This document shows positions 19,249 to 43,696 of a stretch of 64,000 nt of DNA, in pieces. This DNA comes from Ruegeria sp. YS9 (GTDB lineage: Bacteria > Pseudomonadota > Alphaproteobacteria > Rhodobacterales > Rhodobacteraceae), in NCBI RefSeq assembly GCF_024628725.1, contig NZ_CP102409.1:3032001-3096000 (forward strand). Reading direction: 5' to 3'. The notes under the pieces were generated by a model. It saw nothing but the letters and a program-made list of their open reading frames with translations. It had not been told where the DNA came from and made no database searches. The position numbers were made by a program, and so were the translations under genes. Positions within the stretch are counted from its first letter, which is position 1, and each line of letters starts with the position of its first letter.

Positions 19249-19958
19249 GCGGTGGCGGCCTTTTGCGCGGTCGCCAGTTCGGACACGCCTTTTTCCGCCA
19301 GATCCATCAGTTGATCCATTTGGGCGCGGCTGAAGACCGAGCCTTCGGCGCTCATCTGTACTTCGATCAGTTTGCCGGATCCGGTCATGATGAAGTTGCC
19401 ATCTACGCCTGCTTCGCTGTCTTCGGGGTAATCAAGGTCCAGCACCGGCTGACCTGCATAAATACCACAGGACACGGCCGCGACCGGATCAACCAGCGGG
19501 TCCGAGATCACATCGCCGGCCTTCATCAACTTGTTCACCGCCAGCCGCAGCGCGACCCAGCCGCCGGTGATCGAGGCGCAGCGGGTGCCGCCATCGGCCT
19601 GGATCACATCACAGTCCACGGTGATCTGACGCTCACCCAGAGCAACCCGATCAACGCCGGCGCGCAGGGCGCGGCCGATCAGGCGCTGGATTTCGACCGT
19701 ACGGCCCCCCTGTTTGCCCGCGGCCGCCTCGCGCCGCATCCGCGTATTGGTGGCGCGGGGCAACATGCCGTATTCGGCTGTGACCCATCCCAGGCCCGAG
19801 CCTTTGATAAACGGCGGCACGCGATCTTCGATCGTGGCGGTGCACAAAACATGCGTGTCGCCCATTTTGATCAGGCAGGAACCTTCGGCATGTTTCGTGA
19901 CTCCCGTCTCGATTGAAACGGCGCGCATTTCACTTAAATCTCTTCCAGAGGGTCGCAT
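19245..19958 (-). CDS. rph: ribonuclease PH
   Basis: Phosphorolytic 3'-5' exoribonuclease that trims tRNA 3' ends. The 237-residue protein has [19 protein letters not shown], the basic motif [30 protein letters not shown] and phosphate-site residues in [19 protein letters not shown]. It heads a leftward operon with rdgB, hemW and ybaN, divergent from hrcA across 112 bp. Confidence 0.97.
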
Positions 19959-36021: not shown

Positions 36022-36610
36022 CCCGGTTGAAAAGATCCGGGCGGCCCTGCGCCGCCCCGGTCACGGGTCCAGTGATTTTGATCTGAACCCGGATACCGTT
36101 CTGCCGCCCGGGCGCCGGTTGCGACCCGCCGGTGTTCTGGTGGCCATTTCTCTGGCTGATGATACACCGCAGGTCATCCTGACCAAACGCTCATCCGCGC
36201 TGAAGCATCACCCGGGCCAGATCGCCTTTCCCGGTGGCAAACAGGATGAAACCGATGCCGATGTTACGGCTGCGGCGCTGCGGGAAGCTGAGGAAGAGAT
36301 CGGCCTGCCTCCGGAGATGGCCGAGATCCTGGGATTCCTGCCGACGCATGAAACCGTGACTTCGTTCACCGTAACACCTGTTGTCGCGGTTATGCGGGAC
36401 AGGTTCCAATCCGTGCCTGAACCCGGCGAAGTGGACGAAGTTTTCTCGACCCCCCTTGCTCATCTTTTGAATCCTGAGAATTATCTGGTCGAGTCGCGCC
36501 GATGGCGCGGCCAGAGACGCAGATATTACGCAGTTCCGTACGGCCCCTATTACATTTGGGGCGCGACCGCCCGCATATTGCGCGGGCTTGCAGCACGGGT
36601 GAATGAATGA
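35996..36610 (+). CDS. CoA pyrophosphatase-type NUDIX hydrolase
   Basis: A protein of about 204 residues with the NUDIX box GGKQDETDADVTAAALREAEEEIGL preceded by LKHHPGQIAFPGG, the pattern of CoA/peroxisomal NUDT7-like diphosphatases that split CoA. ATG 35996 overlaps hslO by 26 bp; GTG 36014 is an alternative with weaker context. The cca gene starts at its stop (overlap 4 bp), so it is part of an hslO-nudix-cca unit. Confidence 0.88.
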   Translation: MPKTPKVHDPVEKIRAALRRPGHGSSDFDLNPDTVLPPGRRLRPAGVLVAISLADDTPQVILTKRSSALKHHPGQIAFPGGKQDETDADVTAAALREAEEEIGLPPEMAEILGFLPTHETVTSFTVTPVVAVMRDRFQSVPEPGEVDEVFSTPLAHLLNPENYLVESRRWRGQRRRYYAVPYGPYYIWGATARILRGLAARVNE

Positions 36611-37761
36611 TGCTGATTGACGAGCCATGGATTAGTGAACCAGCGACCCAAAAAGTCTGTTCGGCCCTGACCTCATCCGGGGCTCAGGCGCTTTTCGTGG
36701 GTGGCTGCGTGCGCAACGCGCTGCTTGGCGCACCAGTGTCGGATATCGACATTGCCACCGATGCAAAGCCCGGGCAGATCGTTGAATTGGCGCAGGCTGC
36801 CGGGCTCAGGGCCATTCCGACCGGCATCGAGCATGGTACGATCACAGTGGTCAGCGCGGGCATCCCACACGAGGTCACGACCTTCCGCCGTGACGTGGAA
36901 ACCGATGGCCGGCGCGCGGTCGTGGCGTTTTCCGATCACGTCGAAGAAGACGCGGCGCGACGGGATTTCACCATGAATGCGCTCTACGCCCAACCCGATG
37001 GCACCGTGCTGGACCCGCTTGGAGGTCTTCCCGACCTAGAGGCCCGGTTGGTGCGGTTTATCGGAACCGCCGAGAACCGCATTCGCGAAGACTATCTCCG
37101 CTCGCTTCGCTACTTCCGTTTTCACGCCTGGTACGGGGATCCGGATGGCGGTTTCGACCCCGATGCGCTGGCCGCCATCGGTGCCAATCTTGACGGGCTG
37201 GAGTCGTTGTCGCGTGAGAGGGTCGGGGCAGAACTGCTGAAATTGCTGGCATCGCCTGATCCGGCTCCCGCCGTTGCGACCATGCGCAGTACCGGTGTTC
37301 TGGCCCGGGTGTTGCCGGGAGCGGACGACCGGTCTTTGGCCCCTTTGATCGCGCTGGAACGGGCGGCTGGTGCCGATCCCGATCCGGTGCGCCGTCTGGC
37401 AGCCATTGCCGCGCCCGAGGATGCCGCGACATTGCGGTTGAGCCGTTCGCAGTTGCAACGCCTGACAAGGATGCGTGAAGAGGCACAGGCCGAAACCAGT
37501 ATAGCTGAACTGGGATACCGCTATGGCGACGAAGGCGGATTGCACGAGACGCTTTTGCGCTGCGCCTTTCTGGAACAACCCTGGTCCGAAGATTTGCGGC
37601 GCGATCTGCATGCAGGCGCAGCAGCGCGTTTCCCTGTGCAGGCCAGGGATCTGATCCCCAACTTCACAGGCCCGGCGCTGGGCAAGAAGCTGGCCGAGCT
37701 GGAAAAACGCTGGATCGCTTCCGGTTTTGCGCTGTCTCGCGAAGAGTTGCTGGCACATTAG
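36607..37761 (+). CDS. cca: CCA tRNA nucleotidyltransferase-type enzyme
   Basis: Adds or repairs the tRNA 3' CCA end. The 384-residue protein has the class II nucleotidyltransferase head (LFVGGCVRNALLG; DIDIATDAKPG with the catalytic Asp pair), then RRDFTMNALY and EDYLRSLRYFRFHAWYG, the tRNA-binding neck region. A poly(A) polymerase is the other possible family member; alphaproteobacterial homologues of this layout are usually CCA enzymes. It ends 77 bp before the leader ORF. Confidence 0.9.
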   Translation: MMLIDEPWISEPATQKVCSALTSSGAQALFVGGCVRNALLGAPVSDIDIATDAKPGQIVELAQAAGLRAIPTGIEHGTITVVSAGIPHEVTTFRRDVETDGRRAVVAFSDHVEEDAARRDFTMNALYAQPDGTVLDPLGGLPDLEARLVRFIGTAENRIREDYLRSLRYFRFHAWYGDPDGGFDPDALAAIGANLDGLESLSRERVGAELLKLLASPDPAPAVATMRSTGVLARVLPGADDRSLAPLIALERAAGADPDPVRRLAAIAAPEDAATLRLSRSQLQRLTRMREEAQAETSIAELGYRYGDEGGLHETLLRCAFLEQPWSEDLRRDLHAGAAARFPVQARDLIPNFTGPALGKKLAELEKRWIASGFALSREELLAH

Positions 37762-37809
37762 TGCGAAGTCTCAAAAAGGGATGACAACTTTGATCCTTTG
37801 TGCTTAGGT

Positions 37810-37905
37810 GCGCCTGTTACATTGATGGAGGACTGCGAATGTATTACGGGATCTGGTTCGGCTAAAGCCGGGACACTTGCCCCGTAAAGGGTGGTGTTCA
37901 GGCGC
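37810..37905 (+). promoter_or_regulatory. putative leader-peptide attenuator upstream of the ABC exporters
   Basis: The 190-bp gap between cca and the first ABC gene can fold. GCGCCTG at 37810-37816 pairs with CAGGCGC at 37899-37905, enclosing the short ORF at 37839-37865, a small hairpin over its stop (CGGC 37859-37862 with GCCG 37867-37870), and a second hairpin at 37873-37897 (ACAC/GTGT outer, CCC/GGG inner). This looks like leader-peptide-controlled attenuation, as known for B. subtilis bmrCD (leader bmrB). The folding is by eye; no energy was computed. Confidence 0.45.
37839..37865 (+). CDS. eight-residue aromatic-rich leader peptide (MYYGIWFG)
   Basis: ATG TAT TAC GGG ATC TGG TTC GGC TAA encodes eight residues, four of them aromatic. 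GGAGGA at 37827-37832, six bases before the ATG, is a near-perfect ribosome binding site, one of the strongest in this window, which argues the ORF is translated. It lies 88 bp before the first of two ABC multidrug-type exporters. I do not recognise the peptide from any known leader. A regulatory leader or stalling peptide is inferred from context, not shown. Confidence 0.55.
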   Translation: MYYGIWFG

Positions 37906-37952
37906 CATCTTTCTTCGCACGTCTTTGTTTCTGCTCAATCGGAGCACTCTCC

Positions 37953-39791
37953 ATGTTTCGCTATTTCGAAAACCTTGTTGACCCTTTTGTTGCCTACCGC
38001 GAGGCTGACATTCCGCCGACGCGCTTGTGGCCCTTCATGCTGGACTATTCGCGACCGTTCTTTCGGGTATTTGTATGGGCGGCGCTGATTTCCATTGTCG
38101 TCGCGGGTGTTGAAATCGGGCTGATCTACTACATGGGTCGCGTAGTGGATCTGTTGGGCGGCACGCCGGCAGATGTCTGGCAAAATCACGGAACGGAATT
38201 GTTGTTGATGGCGGCCTTTGTATTGCTGTTGCGTCCGCTTCTGCATTTGGTCGACGTACTTCTGCTGAACAATACGATTTTGCCGAACTTTGGTACGCTG
38301 ATCCGTTGGCGTGCGCACAAACACGTGTTGCGTCAGTCGGTTGGCTGGTTCGAAAACGACTTTGCCGGGCGGATTGCAAACCGGATCATGCAGACACCGC
38401 CCGCAGCGGGCGAAGTGGTCTTTCAGGTATTTGACGCGATTTCATTTTCGCTGGCCTATCTGATTGGTGCGGCGATCCTGCTGTATGCGGCGGATCCGCG
38501 TTTATTGATCCCGCTGCTGATCTGGTTTGCGTTCTATGCGGCACTGGTTCGTTGGACCGTTCAGCGTGTCGGCCCGGCGTCAAAGGCGGCATCGGACGCG
38601 CGTTCGACGGTCACGGGACGGGTCGTGGACAGCTATACCAACATCCATTCGGTCAAAATGTTTGCCCATGGCCCGCAAGAGCTGGACTATGCCCGTGAAG
38701 CGATCGAGGAAACCCGCCGGACATTTCAGATCGAAATGCGGATTTTCACCATCATGGATGCCGTTCTGGTCACTTTGAACGGCATGCTGATCGTGGGTGT
38801 TGTGGGCTGGGCGATCGCGTTGTGGATGCAGGGCAGCGCTTCGGTCGGAGTTGTTGCAGCGGCCACGGCGCTGACCCTGCGCCTGAACGCCATGACCGGA
38901 TGGATCATGTGGGCCCTGACCAGCTTTTTTCGCCAACTTGGTATCGTGGCCGAGGGGATGGAGACCATTGCCCAGCCCATCGATTTGATCGACGCACCTG
39001 ATGCAAAACCCTTGCGGCTCGGCAAGGGAGAGATCCAGATCCGCGACCTCTCGCATCACTATGGACGCGAGGCCGGCGGTTTGGACCATATCAACCTGAC
39101 CATCCAACCGGGTGAAAAGATTGGCCTGATCGGTCGCTCCGGCGCTGGCAAGTCAACCCTGGTAAAGCTGCTGTTGCGGTTCTACGACGTCGAACGCGGT
39201 GCGATTTATATTGATGGTCAGAACATTGCGAACGTCACCCAGGACAGTCTGCGCAGCCATATCGGTATGGTTCAACAAGACAGCGCCTTGCTGCATCGCT
39301 CGGTCCGCGACAACATCCTTTATGGCAGGCCGGATGCGTCCGAGGCGCAGATGATCGCCGCCGCCAAGCAGGCCGAAGCGCATGAGTTCATCCTCGACTT
39401 GCAAGATCCGCAGGGTCGGACCGGGTACGACGCGCATGTCGGTGAACGGGGGGTGAAACTGTCAGGTGGTCAGCGGCAGCGCGTGACGCTGGCGCGGGTG
39501 ATCCTGAAGGATGCGCCGATCTTGTTGTTGGATGAGGCGACTTCCGCCCTAGATTCCGAGGTCGAAGCGTCAATTCAGGAAACCCTCTACGGCATGATGC
39601 AAGGAAAAACCGTGATCGCCATCGCCCACAGGCTCAGCACCATCGCGCAGATGGATCGCATTCTGGTTATGGATGCAGGCCGTATCGTCGAGGAAGGCAC
39701 GCATTCCGATCTTCTGGCGCAGGGTGGCCTTTACGCCCAATTCTGGGCGCGGCAATCTGGTGGCTTCATGAACCCGGAGGCCGCTGAATGA
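37953..39791 (+). CDS. ABC exporter half-transporter 1 (TMD-NBD fusion)
   Basis: A 612-residue multidrug/lipid exporter half-molecule. Residues about 1-330 carry six membrane helices; from about 345 there is the nucleotide-binding domain with Walker A GRSGAGKSTLVKLLL, Q-loop MVQQDSALL, signature LSGGQRQRVTLARVIL and Walker B ILLLDEATSALDSE with intact catalytic Glu and H-loop AHRLST. GGAG lies 9 bases before the ATG. The second half-transporter overlaps its stop by 4 bp, so the pair may form a heterodimer. Substrate unknown. Confidence 0.95.
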   Translation: MFRYFENLVDPFVAYREADIPPTRLWPFMLDYSRPFFRVFVWAALISIVVAGVEIGLIYYMGRVVDLLGGTPADVWQNHGTELLLMAAFVLLLRPLLHLVDVLLLNNTILPNFGTLIRWRAHKHVLRQSVGWFENDFAGRIANRIMQTPPAAGEVVFQVFDAISFSLAYLIGAAILLYAADPRLLIPLLIWFAFYAALVRWTVQRVGPASKAASDARSTVTGRVVDSYTNIHSVKMFAHGPQELDYAREAIEETRRTFQIEMRIFTIMDAVLVTLNGMLIVGVVGWAIALWMQGSASVGVVAAATALTLRLNAMTGWIMWALTSFFRQLGIVAEGMETIAQPIDLIDAPDAKPLRLGKGEIQIRDLSHHYGREAGGLDHINLTIQPGEKIGLIGRSGAGKSTLVKLLLRFYDVERGAIYIDGQNIANVTQDSLRSHIGMVQQDSALLHRSVRDNILYGRPDASEAQMIAAAKQAEAHEFILDLQDPQGRTGYDAHVGERGVKLSGGQRQRVTLARVILKDAPILLLDEATSALDSEVEASIQETLYGMMQGKTVIAIAHRLSTIAQMDRILVMDAGRIVEEGTHSDLLAQGGLYAQFWARQSGGFMNPEAAE

Positions 39792-41620
39792 GGATTGCCG
39801 ATCTCATCTATCCGTTCAGGAACATCGAAACGCCCCCACCGCAGACGTTGGGGGCGTTCATCCGCTGGAGCCTGTCCGGGGCGTGGCCGATGCTGTTTGT
39901 TGCGGCGTTCTTCTCGGCCATTGCAGGCGCGATGGAGGCGGGGACAGCATGGATTCTGGGCCGCGTGATTGATGTAGCGACCGCCAGTGGGCCCGAGAAT
40001 TTTCTGACCGCTGCCAATATGTGGATGATCCTCGGTGCGGTCGCCTTCTTCATGTTGCTTCGCCCGATCCTGTTCGGCCTGTCATCCTTGTCGAACAATT
40101 ACATTGTCATGCCAAACATCACACCTTTGGTTCTGGCCAAGTTGAACCGTTGGACCCTGGGTCAGTCGGTGACCTATTTCGACGATGATTTTGCCGGTCG
40201 GATCGCGCAAAAGCAGATGCAGACATCGAACGCGATGGCATCGGTGGTGTCGGAAACCATCAGCGCGATTGTGTTTGCCCTGGCGTCTCTGATGGGGTCT
40301 TTGCTTTTGTTAGGGTCTATTCATCCTTTGGTGATGCTGCCCTTCGCGGCATGGCTGGCGGTGTATTTCATGCTGGTGCGCTGGTATCTGCCGCGCATCC
40401 GCAAACGTTCCGCCGCGCGGGCCGGGGCGCGGGCGATGGTGTCCGGGCAGGTGGTCGATACGATCACCAACATCAAGACCGTGAAGCTGTTCGCCCACTC
40501 AGAATTCGAAGATCAGGCGGCGCGCGAATCGATGGTGGATCTGCGCGAAAAATCGCTGGATTTTGGCAAGTTGTCGGCCAGTTTCCGGTTCATCCTGATG
40601 ACGCTGGCCGGTGTCCTGCCCGTCTTGCTGCTGGGCGCGACCTTGTGGCTGTGGCAGGGCGGCATGGCGACCGCCGGGGATATCGTGGCTGCCGGGGCTG
40701 TTTCGATCCGTATTGCTCAGATGACCGGTTGGGTCAGTTTCACCTTGATGGGGCTGTATGCCAATGTCGGTGAAATCGAAAACGGGATGAAAACGCTGAC
40801 CAAGCGTGACCGGGTCGAAGATATGCGCGGGGCTAAGGACCTTGATGTGACCGAAGGGTCGATTTCATTCGACGGCGTCAGCTTCGCCTATGGTCGCGAT
40901 ATCGGTGGCGTCACGGATTTGACCCTGACCGTCAACCCGGGTGAAAAACTGGGCATCGTCGGTGCCTCGGGGGCGGGGAAATCCACGCTCGTTTCGCTGT
41001 TGCTTAGGCTCTATGACAAGGAAAGTGGCGCCATTCGCATCGACGGCCAGGACGTGTCGCAGGTGACGCAGGACAGCCTGCGCCGACAGATCGGTATGGT
41101 TACGCAGGAAACGGCGATGTTCAACCGGTCTGCTCGTGAGAACATTCTGTATGGCCGGCCGGACGCCTCAGAGGCCGAGATGATCGAGGCCGCAAAGAAG
41201 GCCGAAGCGCATGACTTCATCCTGAGTCTTGAAGATGCTCATGGTCGTAAGGGCTATGATGCTCATCTGGGGGAGCGGGGCGTGAAACTCAGCGGCGGGC
41301 AGAGACAACGGATAGCTCTGGCGCGCGCCATTCTGAAAGATGCCCCAATTCTGGTTCTCGACGAAGCGACATCGGCGCTGGATTCCGAAGTTGAAGCCTC
41401 GATTCAGACCGCGCTGCATCGGGTGATGCAGGGCAAAACCGTGCTGGCCATTGCGCACCGTCTGTCCACGCTCAGCGAAATGGACCGGATTGTTGTTTTG
41501 GACCAGGGACGGATCGTGGAAACCGGAACCCATGAGGCGTTGCTGGACCTGGGCGGGCTGTATGCGCGGTTCTGGCACCGCCAGTCGGGCGGTTTCATTC
41601 AGGCAGAAGCTGCGGAATAA
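39788..41620 (+). CDS. ABC exporter half-transporter 2 (TMD-NBD fusion)
   Basis: A 610-residue paralogue of the preceding protein, of the same order: six helices then NBD with Walker A GASGAGKSTLVSLLL, Q-loop MVTQETAMF, signature LSGGQRQRIALARAIL, Walker B ILVLDEATSALDSE and AHRLST. Both proteins share the ENILYGRPDASEA segment and a C-terminal FWHRQSGGF / FWARQSGGF tail, showing an old duplication. Both catalytic glutamates are intact, unlike many asymmetric heterodimers. The start overlaps the first gene's stop. Confidence 0.95.
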   Translation: MRIADLIYPFRNIETPPPQTLGAFIRWSLSGAWPMLFVAAFFSAIAGAMEAGTAWILGRVIDVATASGPENFLTAANMWMILGAVAFFMLLRPILFGLSSLSNNYIVMPNITPLVLAKLNRWTLGQSVTYFDDDFAGRIAQKQMQTSNAMASVVSETISAIVFALASLMGSLLLLGSIHPLVMLPFAAWLAVYFMLVRWYLPRIRKRSAARAGARAMVSGQVVDTITNIKTVKLFAHSEFEDQAARESMVDLREKSLDFGKLSASFRFILMTLAGVLPVLLLGATLWLWQGGMATAGDIVAAGAVSIRIAQMTGWVSFTLMGLYANVGEIENGMKTLTKRDRVEDMRGAKDLDVTEGSISFDGVSFAYGRDIGGVTDLTLTVNPGEKLGIVGASGAGKSTLVSLLLRLYDKESGAIRIDGQDVSQVTQDSLRRQIGMVTQETAMFNRSARENILYGRPDASEAEMIEAAKKAEAHDFILSLEDAHGRKGYDAHLGERGVKLSGGQRQRIALARAILKDAPILVLDEATSALDSEVEASIQTALHRVMQGKTVLAIAHRLSTLSEMDRIVVLDQGRIVETGTHEALLDLGGLYARFWHRQSGGFIQAEAAE

Positions 41621-42910: not shown

Positions 42911-43696
42911 ATGGGGTCCAAACAGCGTTTGCTGAATTTTATCGAAGCGCCCGTTTTCGGTCGGTTCATAACGGCCGTGATCATTTTCAATGCCATTCTT
43001 TTGGGGATGGAGACATCGCCGACCCTGATGGAGCTGGCAGGCCCTTTGATCGTGGCGCTGGACCGGCTTTGCCTGACGATCTTCGTGGTCGAAATTGCCA
43101 TGAAGCTGATCGCCACAGGGCGCAGGTTCTTCACAAATGGCTGGAACATATTCGATTTCCTGATCGTTGGAATTGCCCTGGTTCCCAGCGCCGGAGGTCT
43201 GTCGGTGCTGCGCGCCCTGCGAATTCTGCGGGTTCTGCGCGTGATTTCCGTGGCGCCTCGTTTGCGTCGCGTGGTCGAAGGGTTCATCTCGGCCCTTCCC
43301 GGAATGGCCAGCGTGTTTCTGCTGATGGCAATTCTGTTCTATATCGGGGCGGTTATCTCGACCAAGCTGTTCTCGACATCCTTCCCGGATTGGTTCGGCG
43401 ATCTGGGCCTGTCTGCTTATACGCTGTTCCAGATCATGACATTGGAAAGCTGGTCCATGGGTATCGTGCGCCCGGTGATGGAGGTCTATCCCTATGCCTG
43501 GGTCTTCTTTGTTCCCTTCATCATGGTCACCACTTTTGCCGTGGTGAACCTGTTGGTGGGTCTGATCGTCAATTCGATGCAGGATGCCCACCACGCCGAG
43601 GATGAGGTTAAAACCGATGCCTATCGTGATGAGGTTCTTGTGCGGCTGGAAAGCATTGAACGTCGACTGGCCGAGCAGTCGAACATCAAAAAGTGA
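42911..43696 (+). CDS. bacterial voltage-gated sodium channel (NavBac, NavSp1-like)
   Basis: A 261-residue single-domain channel with S1-S6. S4 carries LRALRILRVLRVISVAPRLRRV with regularly spaced arginines as voltage sensor. The pore has the selectivity filter TLESWSM, the Na+-selective pattern of NaChBac/NavAb (TLESWAS). The C-terminal tail (about residues 225-255, VRLESIERRLAEQ) is a probable coiled coil that tetramerises the channel. A Silicibacter pomeroyi member, NavSp1, is known to have this filter. It follows the methyltransferase by 21 bp. Confidence 0.96.
   Translation: MGSKQRLLNFIEAPVFGRFITAVIIFNAILLGMETSPTLMELAGPLIVALDRLCLTIFVVEIAMKLIATGRRFFTNGWNIFDFLIVGIALVPSAGGLSVLRALRILRVLRVISVAPRLRRVVEGFISALPGMASVFLLMAILFYIGAVISTKLFSTSFPDWFGDLGLSAYTLFQIMTLESWSMGIVRPVMEVYPYAWVFFVPFIMVTTFAVVNLLVGLIVNSMQDAHHAEDEVKTDAYRDEVLVRLESIERRLAEQSNIKK

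Follow-up and report, generated by a model that had tools for sequence, protein, structure and literature searches.

A candidate translational double lock in the leader of an ABC exporter operon of Ruegeria and its relatives

In the stretch of Ruegeria sp. YS9 DNA analysed here (the window, 64,000 nt), the 5′ leader of an operon for two ABC half-transporters carries an eight-codon ORF, MYYGIWFG, behind a strong Shine-Dalgarno (SD) sequence. A leader ORF of eight to eleven codons is conserved in this place across many marine members of the family, and comparison among genomes recovers two long-range helices, P0 and P1, that pair its ribosome binding site and start region with the exporter start and the segment before it. 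On this comparative evidence and on folding models, we give about an even chance to the reading that the leader is a cis-acting translational double lock, opened by a ribosome at the leader start. If true, an ABC exporter would be governed by a leader-ORF switch that is widespread in the family around Ruegeria. One ribosome binding site would mask another start and thereby tie the exporter to translation stress, with no need for an arrest peptide dedicated to the task, and several peptides on one lock would let natural variation separate RNA logic from peptide logic.

The exporter locus and its leader ORF across the family

The leader lies between an upstream CCA tRNA nucleotidyltransferase-like gene and the ABC pair, with an RlmD-like 23S rRNA methyltransferase gene 3′ of the pair (Table 1); the names of both flanking genes are best NCBIfam matches below the curated cut-offs. 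Each ABC protein has a transmembrane and an ATPase domain, both share the Walker B sequence LDEATSALD, and the top solved-structure matches of both are ABCB-type (e.g. plant ABCB19 and P-glycoprotein). The nearest named relatives of the first protein belong to Ruegeria (96% identity, best of 80 loci kept). Because no NCBIfam model reached its cut-off among the best 25 of 187 and the best 25 of 189 matches for the two proteins, a 'multidrug' label is not established. Near the operon (42911-43696, + strand) lies a gene for a 261-aa ion-channel protein (Pfam Ion_trans) with TLESWSMG, which we take to be a motif typical of bacterial voltage-gated sodium channels.

Table 1. Genes and leader elements mapped in the window (window coordinates)
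Feature	Position	Strand	Details
CCA tRNA nucleotidyltransferase-like gene	36607-37761		upstream of leader
Promoter-like pair	37781-37809	+	ATGACA (37781-37786), 17 nt, TTAGGT (37804-37809; second hexamer set by eye)
P0 5′ arm	37825-37831	+	ATGGAGG; holds leader SD GGAGG (37827-37831); permutation
P1 5′ arm	37834-37839	+	TGCGAA; spacer and first base of leader AUG
Leader ORF, stop codon included	37839-37865	+	MYYGIWFG; ATG TAT TAC GGG ATC TGG TTC GGC TAA
P2 5′ arm	37844-37850	+	TTACGGG; end of codon 2 to codon 4
P2b small hairpin	37860-37869	+	GGC-TAAA-GCC over leader stop codon; model-fitted, weak support
P2 3′ arm	37881-37887	+	CCCGTAA; after leader stop
P3 hairpin	37890-37909	+	GGTGGTG / CGCCATC; model-fitted
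P1 3′ arm	37914-37919	+	TTCGCA; pairs with 37834-37839
Exporter-SD hairpin	37932-37946	+	TGCTC-AATCG-GAGCA; covers GGAG 37941-37944; model-fitted
P0 3′ arm	37948-37954	+	TCTCCAT; takes in first two bases of exporter AUG
ABC half-transporter 1	37953-39791	+	612 aa; ABC_membrane and ABC_tran
ABC half-transporter 2	39788-41620	+	610 aa; 4-nt overlap with half-transporter 1

The first-pass annotation had singled out MYYGIWFG for its strong ribosome binding site, and this is confirmed: GGAGG and ATG are separated by a 7-nt spacer, and in the 64 kb no other ORF of 5-12 codons, on either strand, has its ATG 4-9 nt behind a GGAGG. Among type-A leaders, defined by the pattern M[Y/F/N]xG[I/L]W and 8-10 codons long, all 36 leaders examined (35 genera) have an in-frame stop no more than five codons past codon 6, compared with 5/36 and 6/36 in the other two frames; the test draws on sequence past codon 6 because the collecting pattern fixed the first six codons only. 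The 8-, 9- and 10-codon forms differ by whole codons. On the stop-codon counts, the reading frame of the type-A leader is under selection. Across 109 leaders of all types, the start codon is ATG in 108 and TTG in one, and a purine-rich SD precedes the ORF, missing in a few. In the 88 distinct type-A leaders, codon 5 is always Ile or Leu, and codon 6 is Trp (TGG) in 86 and Arg in two (MYYGLRFG in L140, MFRGIRLI in L173), under a collecting pattern that, for most leaders, required Trp at codon 6 and only Ile/Leu/Val at codon 5. Further upstream, 45 of 53 leaders have TGACA, TGACT or TGATA at -62 to -53 relative to the leader ATG, often followed, by eye, by a TA-containing hexamer about 17 nt downstream. 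A scan with an E. coli-type consensus called no promoter at this place in the window. The TGACA-like element and the hexamer suggest a promoter directly upstream of the leader and a transcript 5′ end near P0.

At E 1e-100 or better, 271 of the 295 family genomes contain a match to the first ABC protein. For 110 loci at the top of this match list (the window's among them; identity almost always about 70% or higher), the upstream regions were read. A pattern search found type A in 38 of them, and reading by eye and by script found another short ORF in the same place in at least 19, namely at least 10 of type B (e.g. MYRDRTLISFN), at least seven of type C (e.g. MIYRICIPTA) and at least two others, with types B and C standing on the same lock. 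No leader was recognised in the remaining 53 of the 110 among the loci listed, where a few odd ones may be missed. By eye, the ABC gene of leaderless orthologues (L012, L031, L160, L180 and others) often sits a short way behind the preceding gene. Among 80 named relatives, whose genomes are partly shared with the 110, a leader is present in 68 (59 type A by pattern, and nine variants that include L140, L173 and the TTG-start leader L182) and no leader shows in 12; both samples are skewed to close relatives. The claim that a leader ORF with foldable flanks precedes the ABC pair thus extends beyond the window, and the ORF, its ribosome binding site and the stems are all conserved in close relatives. 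Of 14 more upstream stretches picked on grounds other than a model match, three have a type C-like leader (L203, L207, L213) and 11 have none that was recognised.

The 109-leader set comprises 88 type A, 10 type B, 8 type C and 3 type X leaders, exact duplicates being counted once (11 leaders from the named set duplicate one in the first set); L094, L107, L110, L111 and L167, with an uncertain ABC start, were left out. One leader (L182, 1346-1506) starts with TTG and encodes, as read by eye, MDDRISYDA; its P2 is ACAGG/CCTGT in type A-like surroundings, and by its sequence it would be a naturally occurring form intermediate between type A and type C. The codon-4 Arg of types B and C, within an AGGATC stretch, is AGG, a codon used for 16 of 242 Arg residues in nine window ORFs, and slow decoding at this position is possible.

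A covariance model, R1, was derived from 24 sequences of type A, with P0 left out because its register moves and P0 in a fixed register is weak. At E up to 1, all 25 genomes of the window's genus gave a strong match over the full length of R1, and 16 genomes of 16 other families gave none; the extras were a second partial match at a contig end in G308 and three weak rows (E 0.11-0.23) in G301 and G303. At E 0.01, it matched 46 of 295 family genomes once each, and each of the 46 matches stops where a homologue of this ABC gene begins (42 by coordinate comparison; G034, G127, G147 and G242 by translating the downstream DNA). This count is a lower bound, given the stricter filters applied and the low scores of types B and C. 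Run over 96 chosen sources at E up to 1, R1 gave 92 matches that include types B and C (e.g. L093 5e-6, L103 5e-6, L065 7e-6), and the types therefore share one RNA architecture. A second, weak match in the window (19801-19895, + strand, 18.4 bits, E 0.046) is probably chance. Across the class, four of 385 genomes carry the type-A pattern, and these four are among the five from the window's family (a reversed control pattern gave two matches). Within the family, 38 of 295 genomes carry it, 37 of them at the ABC start; the occurrence in G059 is probably chance. Rfam returned only two matches for window positions 37500-38200, both far below the gathering score (E 0.1 and 1.7), and none at the gathering score for the leaders L024, L065, L103 and L185; a search for the leader as a tRNA or tmRNA was negative.

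Long-range helices and covariation

The outermost pairing, P0, absent from the first-pass annotation, joins the leader SD region to the exporter spacer and AUG. P1 joins the leader spacer/AUG region to a segment before the exporter SD, and P2 joins leader codons 3-5 to a segment after the leader stop. The long-range pairing claimed earlier corresponds to P1; it is real, at 6 bp rather than 7. The predicted fold does contain hairpins, but the folding energy of the window leader is not significant (z -1.2; 28 of 200 shuffles fold as well). Because single-sequence folding is ordinary, the structural case rests on comparison.

A permutation test compared the best ungapped helix between each leader's own arms with that obtained when arms were swapped among genomes, a design that removes shared ancestry in part only. 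In 53 leaders from 52 genera, own-arm complementarity reached z 9.1 for P0, 9.3 for P1 and 4.7 for P2, and 0 of 10000 permutations reached any of the three; P0 still gave z 5.9 when the 5′ stretch searched stopped short of the usual SD position. The same held in type A with one leader per genus (n 35; P0 6.6, P1 6.4, P2 3.0), in types B and C together (n 16; 5.3, 5.3 and 3.6) and in the named set (n 56; 7.9, 6.7 and 3.5). Across these three subsets, 0 of 5000 permutations reached P0 or P1, P2 was reached by 9, 5 and 2 of 5000, and two control pairings gave z of only -2.8 to 1.8. The loci L094, L107, L110 and L111 were also left out of the 53-leader test; L003, a second genome of the window's genus, is in the 53-leader and 36-leader tests and out of the set of 35. 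P0 reads CATAACGGA/TCCGTTATG in L006, TGTCGGA/TCCGACA in L019, ATCGGAGGCT/AGCCTCCGAT in L052 and CATTCGGAGG/CTTCCGAATG in L056, the ATG of the 3′ arm being the exporter start in L006, L052 and L056; P1 reads ATGCAAATGT/ACATTTGCGT in L024 and TACGAAATG/CGTTTCGTA in L044. P0 in one fixed register gave excess pairing of at most 15 percentage points, its register shifting between lineages, and the P2b hairpin at the leader stop, appealing by eye, reached only z 1.7 (460 of 10000 permutations reach it) and is kept as weak.

Alignment A3, made of the 92 R1 matches fitted to the structure of the model, without P0 and with the weak window match at 19801-19895 counted in, has changes on both sides in some sequences for 27 of 27 modelled pairs. 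In total, 83.0% of its cells pair, vs 67.6% when shuffled (0 of 500 shuffles) and 35.9-51.1% when slid, and its covariation is 0.362 vs 0.034-0.078 when slid; the weakest helix is outer P2 (63.7% pairing). An all-type alignment, A1, was excluded from the counts, as P2 and P3 are misaligned in it by eye. The covariation check proposed at first pass thus came out in favour of the stems, with P0, P1 and P2 above permutation. In predicted ensembles, mean pairing probability exceeds 0.5 for the best P0 helix in 66/88 type A, 8/10 type B, 4/8 type C and 3/3 type X leaders, for P1 in 75/88, 9/10, 6/8 and 1/3, and for P2 in 64/88, 7/10, 8/8 and 0/3, respectively.

Proposed mechanism and alternatives

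With no ribosome on the leader, the RNA would be closed, with P0 and P1 formed. Closed P0 would hold the exporter spacer and AUG against the leader SD region, closed P1 would hold the leader spacer and AUG against the segment before the exporter SD, and in many species a small hairpin would also cover the exporter SD; by eye, this hairpin is missing from some type-A leaders (e.g. L027, L028, L030). The closed state would mask both start sites, the leader's and the exporter's. A ribosome at the leader SD/AUG would take away the 5′ arms of P0 and P1 and expose the exporter start, and exporter output would track the frequency, and above all the duration, of ribosomes at the start of the leader ORF. 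Output would rise when initiation complexes or the first elongation steps are slowed, as under translation stress or ribosome-targeting drugs, and fall when ribosomes clear fast or cannot load. We infer that the leader ORF is translated, and likewise the direction of control and the coupling of the signal to slowed initiation or early elongation and to ribosome-targeting compounds; the ribosome position that would unlock, the leader AUG, is calculated.

That calculation barred a 30-nt ribosome footprint from pairing; the energies are thermodynamic estimates for 37 °C, and the footprint is a crude one. The mean cost of opening the exporter start over 109 leaders is 10.9 kcal/mol in the free RNA and 8.0 with the footprint at the leader AUG, compared with 9.9, 10.2 and 10.8 kcal/mol with the footprint at codon 3, codon 5 and the last codon (standard deviations about 2). 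The gain from occupying the AUG exceeds 2 kcal/mol in 66 of 109 leaders, and the predicted unlocking is modest; the exporter-SD hairpin would persist after it. For the window leader, the costs are 10.2 (free), 8.5 (AUG), 7.8 (codon 3), 8.6 (codon 5) and 10.1 (last codon), such that early elongation would unlock it about as well as the AUG. Shuffling the first 28 nt once lowered the opening cost by 2.7 kcal/mol on average (sd 2.6), and by more than 1 in 82 of 109 leaders. Against a leaderless set (n 49) of higher GC than the leader-bearing one (n 53), 140 nt of upstream context gives opening costs of 9.1 and 10.4, respectively (p 0.0035), 35 nt of context reverses the order (8.2 leaderless, 7.2 leader-bearing, which opens more easily), and the far-upstream sequence adds 0.9 and 3.1 kcal/mol (p 1.7e-6).

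That the peptides differ among types while the lock stays was counted in favour of the double lock. The suggestion that MYYGIWFG itself reads out an aromatic amino acid or an antibiotic is not supported: in other genera, unrelated peptides (MYRDRTLISFN, MIYRICIPTA, MDRDRIFTSFS) occupy the same lock, and Trp gives way to Arg in 2 of 88 leaders. Amino-acid sensing is not favoured, as types B and C have no aromatic run. The best reading of the sequences and models is an occupancy sensor more than a MYYGIW-specific arrest, although the near-constant GIW core and a Trp codon unaccounted for by P2 speak for some peptide role. Tentatively, and with more doubt than confidence, the leader may be a peptide-independent initiation sensor, in which the leader SD/AUG would act as antisense of the exporter start and lingering initiation complexes would switch the exporter on. 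The ORF sequence would then be free to vary, as in types A, B and C, provided that it can be started, can be stopped and forms the lock.

The near-constant GIW core of type A, found in a pattern-biased collection, would also suit classical translational attenuation, in which a drug or a shortage of charged tRNA arrests the ribosome on MYxGIW and the rearranged RNA frees the exporter start. The same explanation could draw on the 3′ CCC of P2, which could pair with a following GGG instead and form an attenuator-like ladder (CCC-N3-9-GGG, 37881-37891 in the window; 67 of 109 leaders and 27 of 53 with one per genus, raw counts uncorrected for composition), and on the window leader, where footprints at codons 3 and 5 unlock about as well as one at the AUG. 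We consider it unlikely, however, given the other peptides that types B and C carry on the same lock, the Arg codons of L140 and L173, and a codon-5 footprint that lowers the cost by only 0.7 kcal/mol on average and by more than 2 in 22 of 109 leaders. Strong RNA covariation beside loose peptide conservation across types would fit a lock run by a non-ribosome factor (a small RNA, an RNA-binding protein, temperature or a ligand), with leader translation as steady low use; the stop kept in frame after codon 6 in all 36 leaders, the whole-codon length differences, the ATG in 108 of 109 and the purine-rich SD in nearly all make such a factor distinctly unlikely.

Transcription attenuation, with leader translation governing Rho-dependent or intrinsic termination before the exporter genes, has a comparable uORF in the alphaproteobacterium S. 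meliloti (PMC12218461), and T-rich stretches lie between the ORF and the exporter SD in 45 of 109 leaders. The other 64 have none, the window leader has zero intrinsic terminator-like sites (37700-38100), and P0 and P1 cover start codons, which leaves this explanation improbable. A chance ORF within an ordinary untranslated leader would sit well with the ordinary single-sequence fold (z -1.2) and with the 53 of 110 orthologues in which no leader was recognised among the loci listed, but it is contradicted by conservation, frame and covariation and has next to no probability.

Comparison with known systems

A literature search, with subscription journals mostly outside its coverage, found no paper on this element and none with the strings MYYGIW, YYGIWFG, MYHGIW or MYRGIW, nor did it turn up such control of an exporter in the family around Ruegeria. 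The first-pass annotation had likened the layout to that of bmrCD. In BmrCD, one ABC site is degenerate, whereas both ABC proteins here have LDEATSALD. In B. subtilis, bmrB acts as a ribosome-mediated attenuator of transcription, and its intrinsic terminator lies within bmrB itself (PMC4191407). The likeness holds for the layout, a short ORF with alternative stem-loops before two ABC exporter genes, and by sequence the ORF, its frame and its SD are conserved here. It does not extend to the terminator, the defining feature of bmrB-type control: unlike bmrB (PMC4191407), the Ruegeria leader has helices that would cover start sites and, in the window (the only leader scanned, 37700-38100), no intrinsic terminator. 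As 45 of 109 leaders have T-rich stretches, intrinsic termination may still apply in other lineages. The covarying helices cover translation starts, which points to translation rather than termination.

In erm-type translational attenuators, a ribosome that a drug has stalled within the leader rearranges the intergenic hairpins. The Ruegeria leader resembles them in having a leader ORF before a masked start and, by the proposed mechanism, control at translation initiation (PMC11264731). In silico, the masking would come from P0 and the SD hairpin. Unlike in the erm type, the strand that masks the downstream start would be the SD region of the leader itself, and lineages differ in their peptide, which is conserved within type A and different in types B, C and X. 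Where an inducer-arrested ribosome unmasks the start in the erm/cat scheme, modelled mid-ORF footprints here would unlock little on average.

Two S. meliloti systems come close in other respects. The uORF of a DUF1127 gene is a proposed sensor of ribosome availability and slow initiation; like the Ruegeria leader, it is alphaproteobacterial and its ribosome binding site can pair with another element, whereas it acts on a different gene through premature Rho-dependent termination (PMC12218461). Within the literature searched, it comes closest as a published proposal of an initiation-sensing uORF in alphaproteobacteria, with another mechanism. The leader peptide peTrpL is tied to post-transcriptional control of a multidrug resistance operon (PMC7298713); that peptide acts in trans, in contrast to the evidence here for a cis RNA. 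The Ruegeria element would thus function as translational attenuators do, and its position matches that of bmrB ahead of bmrCD.
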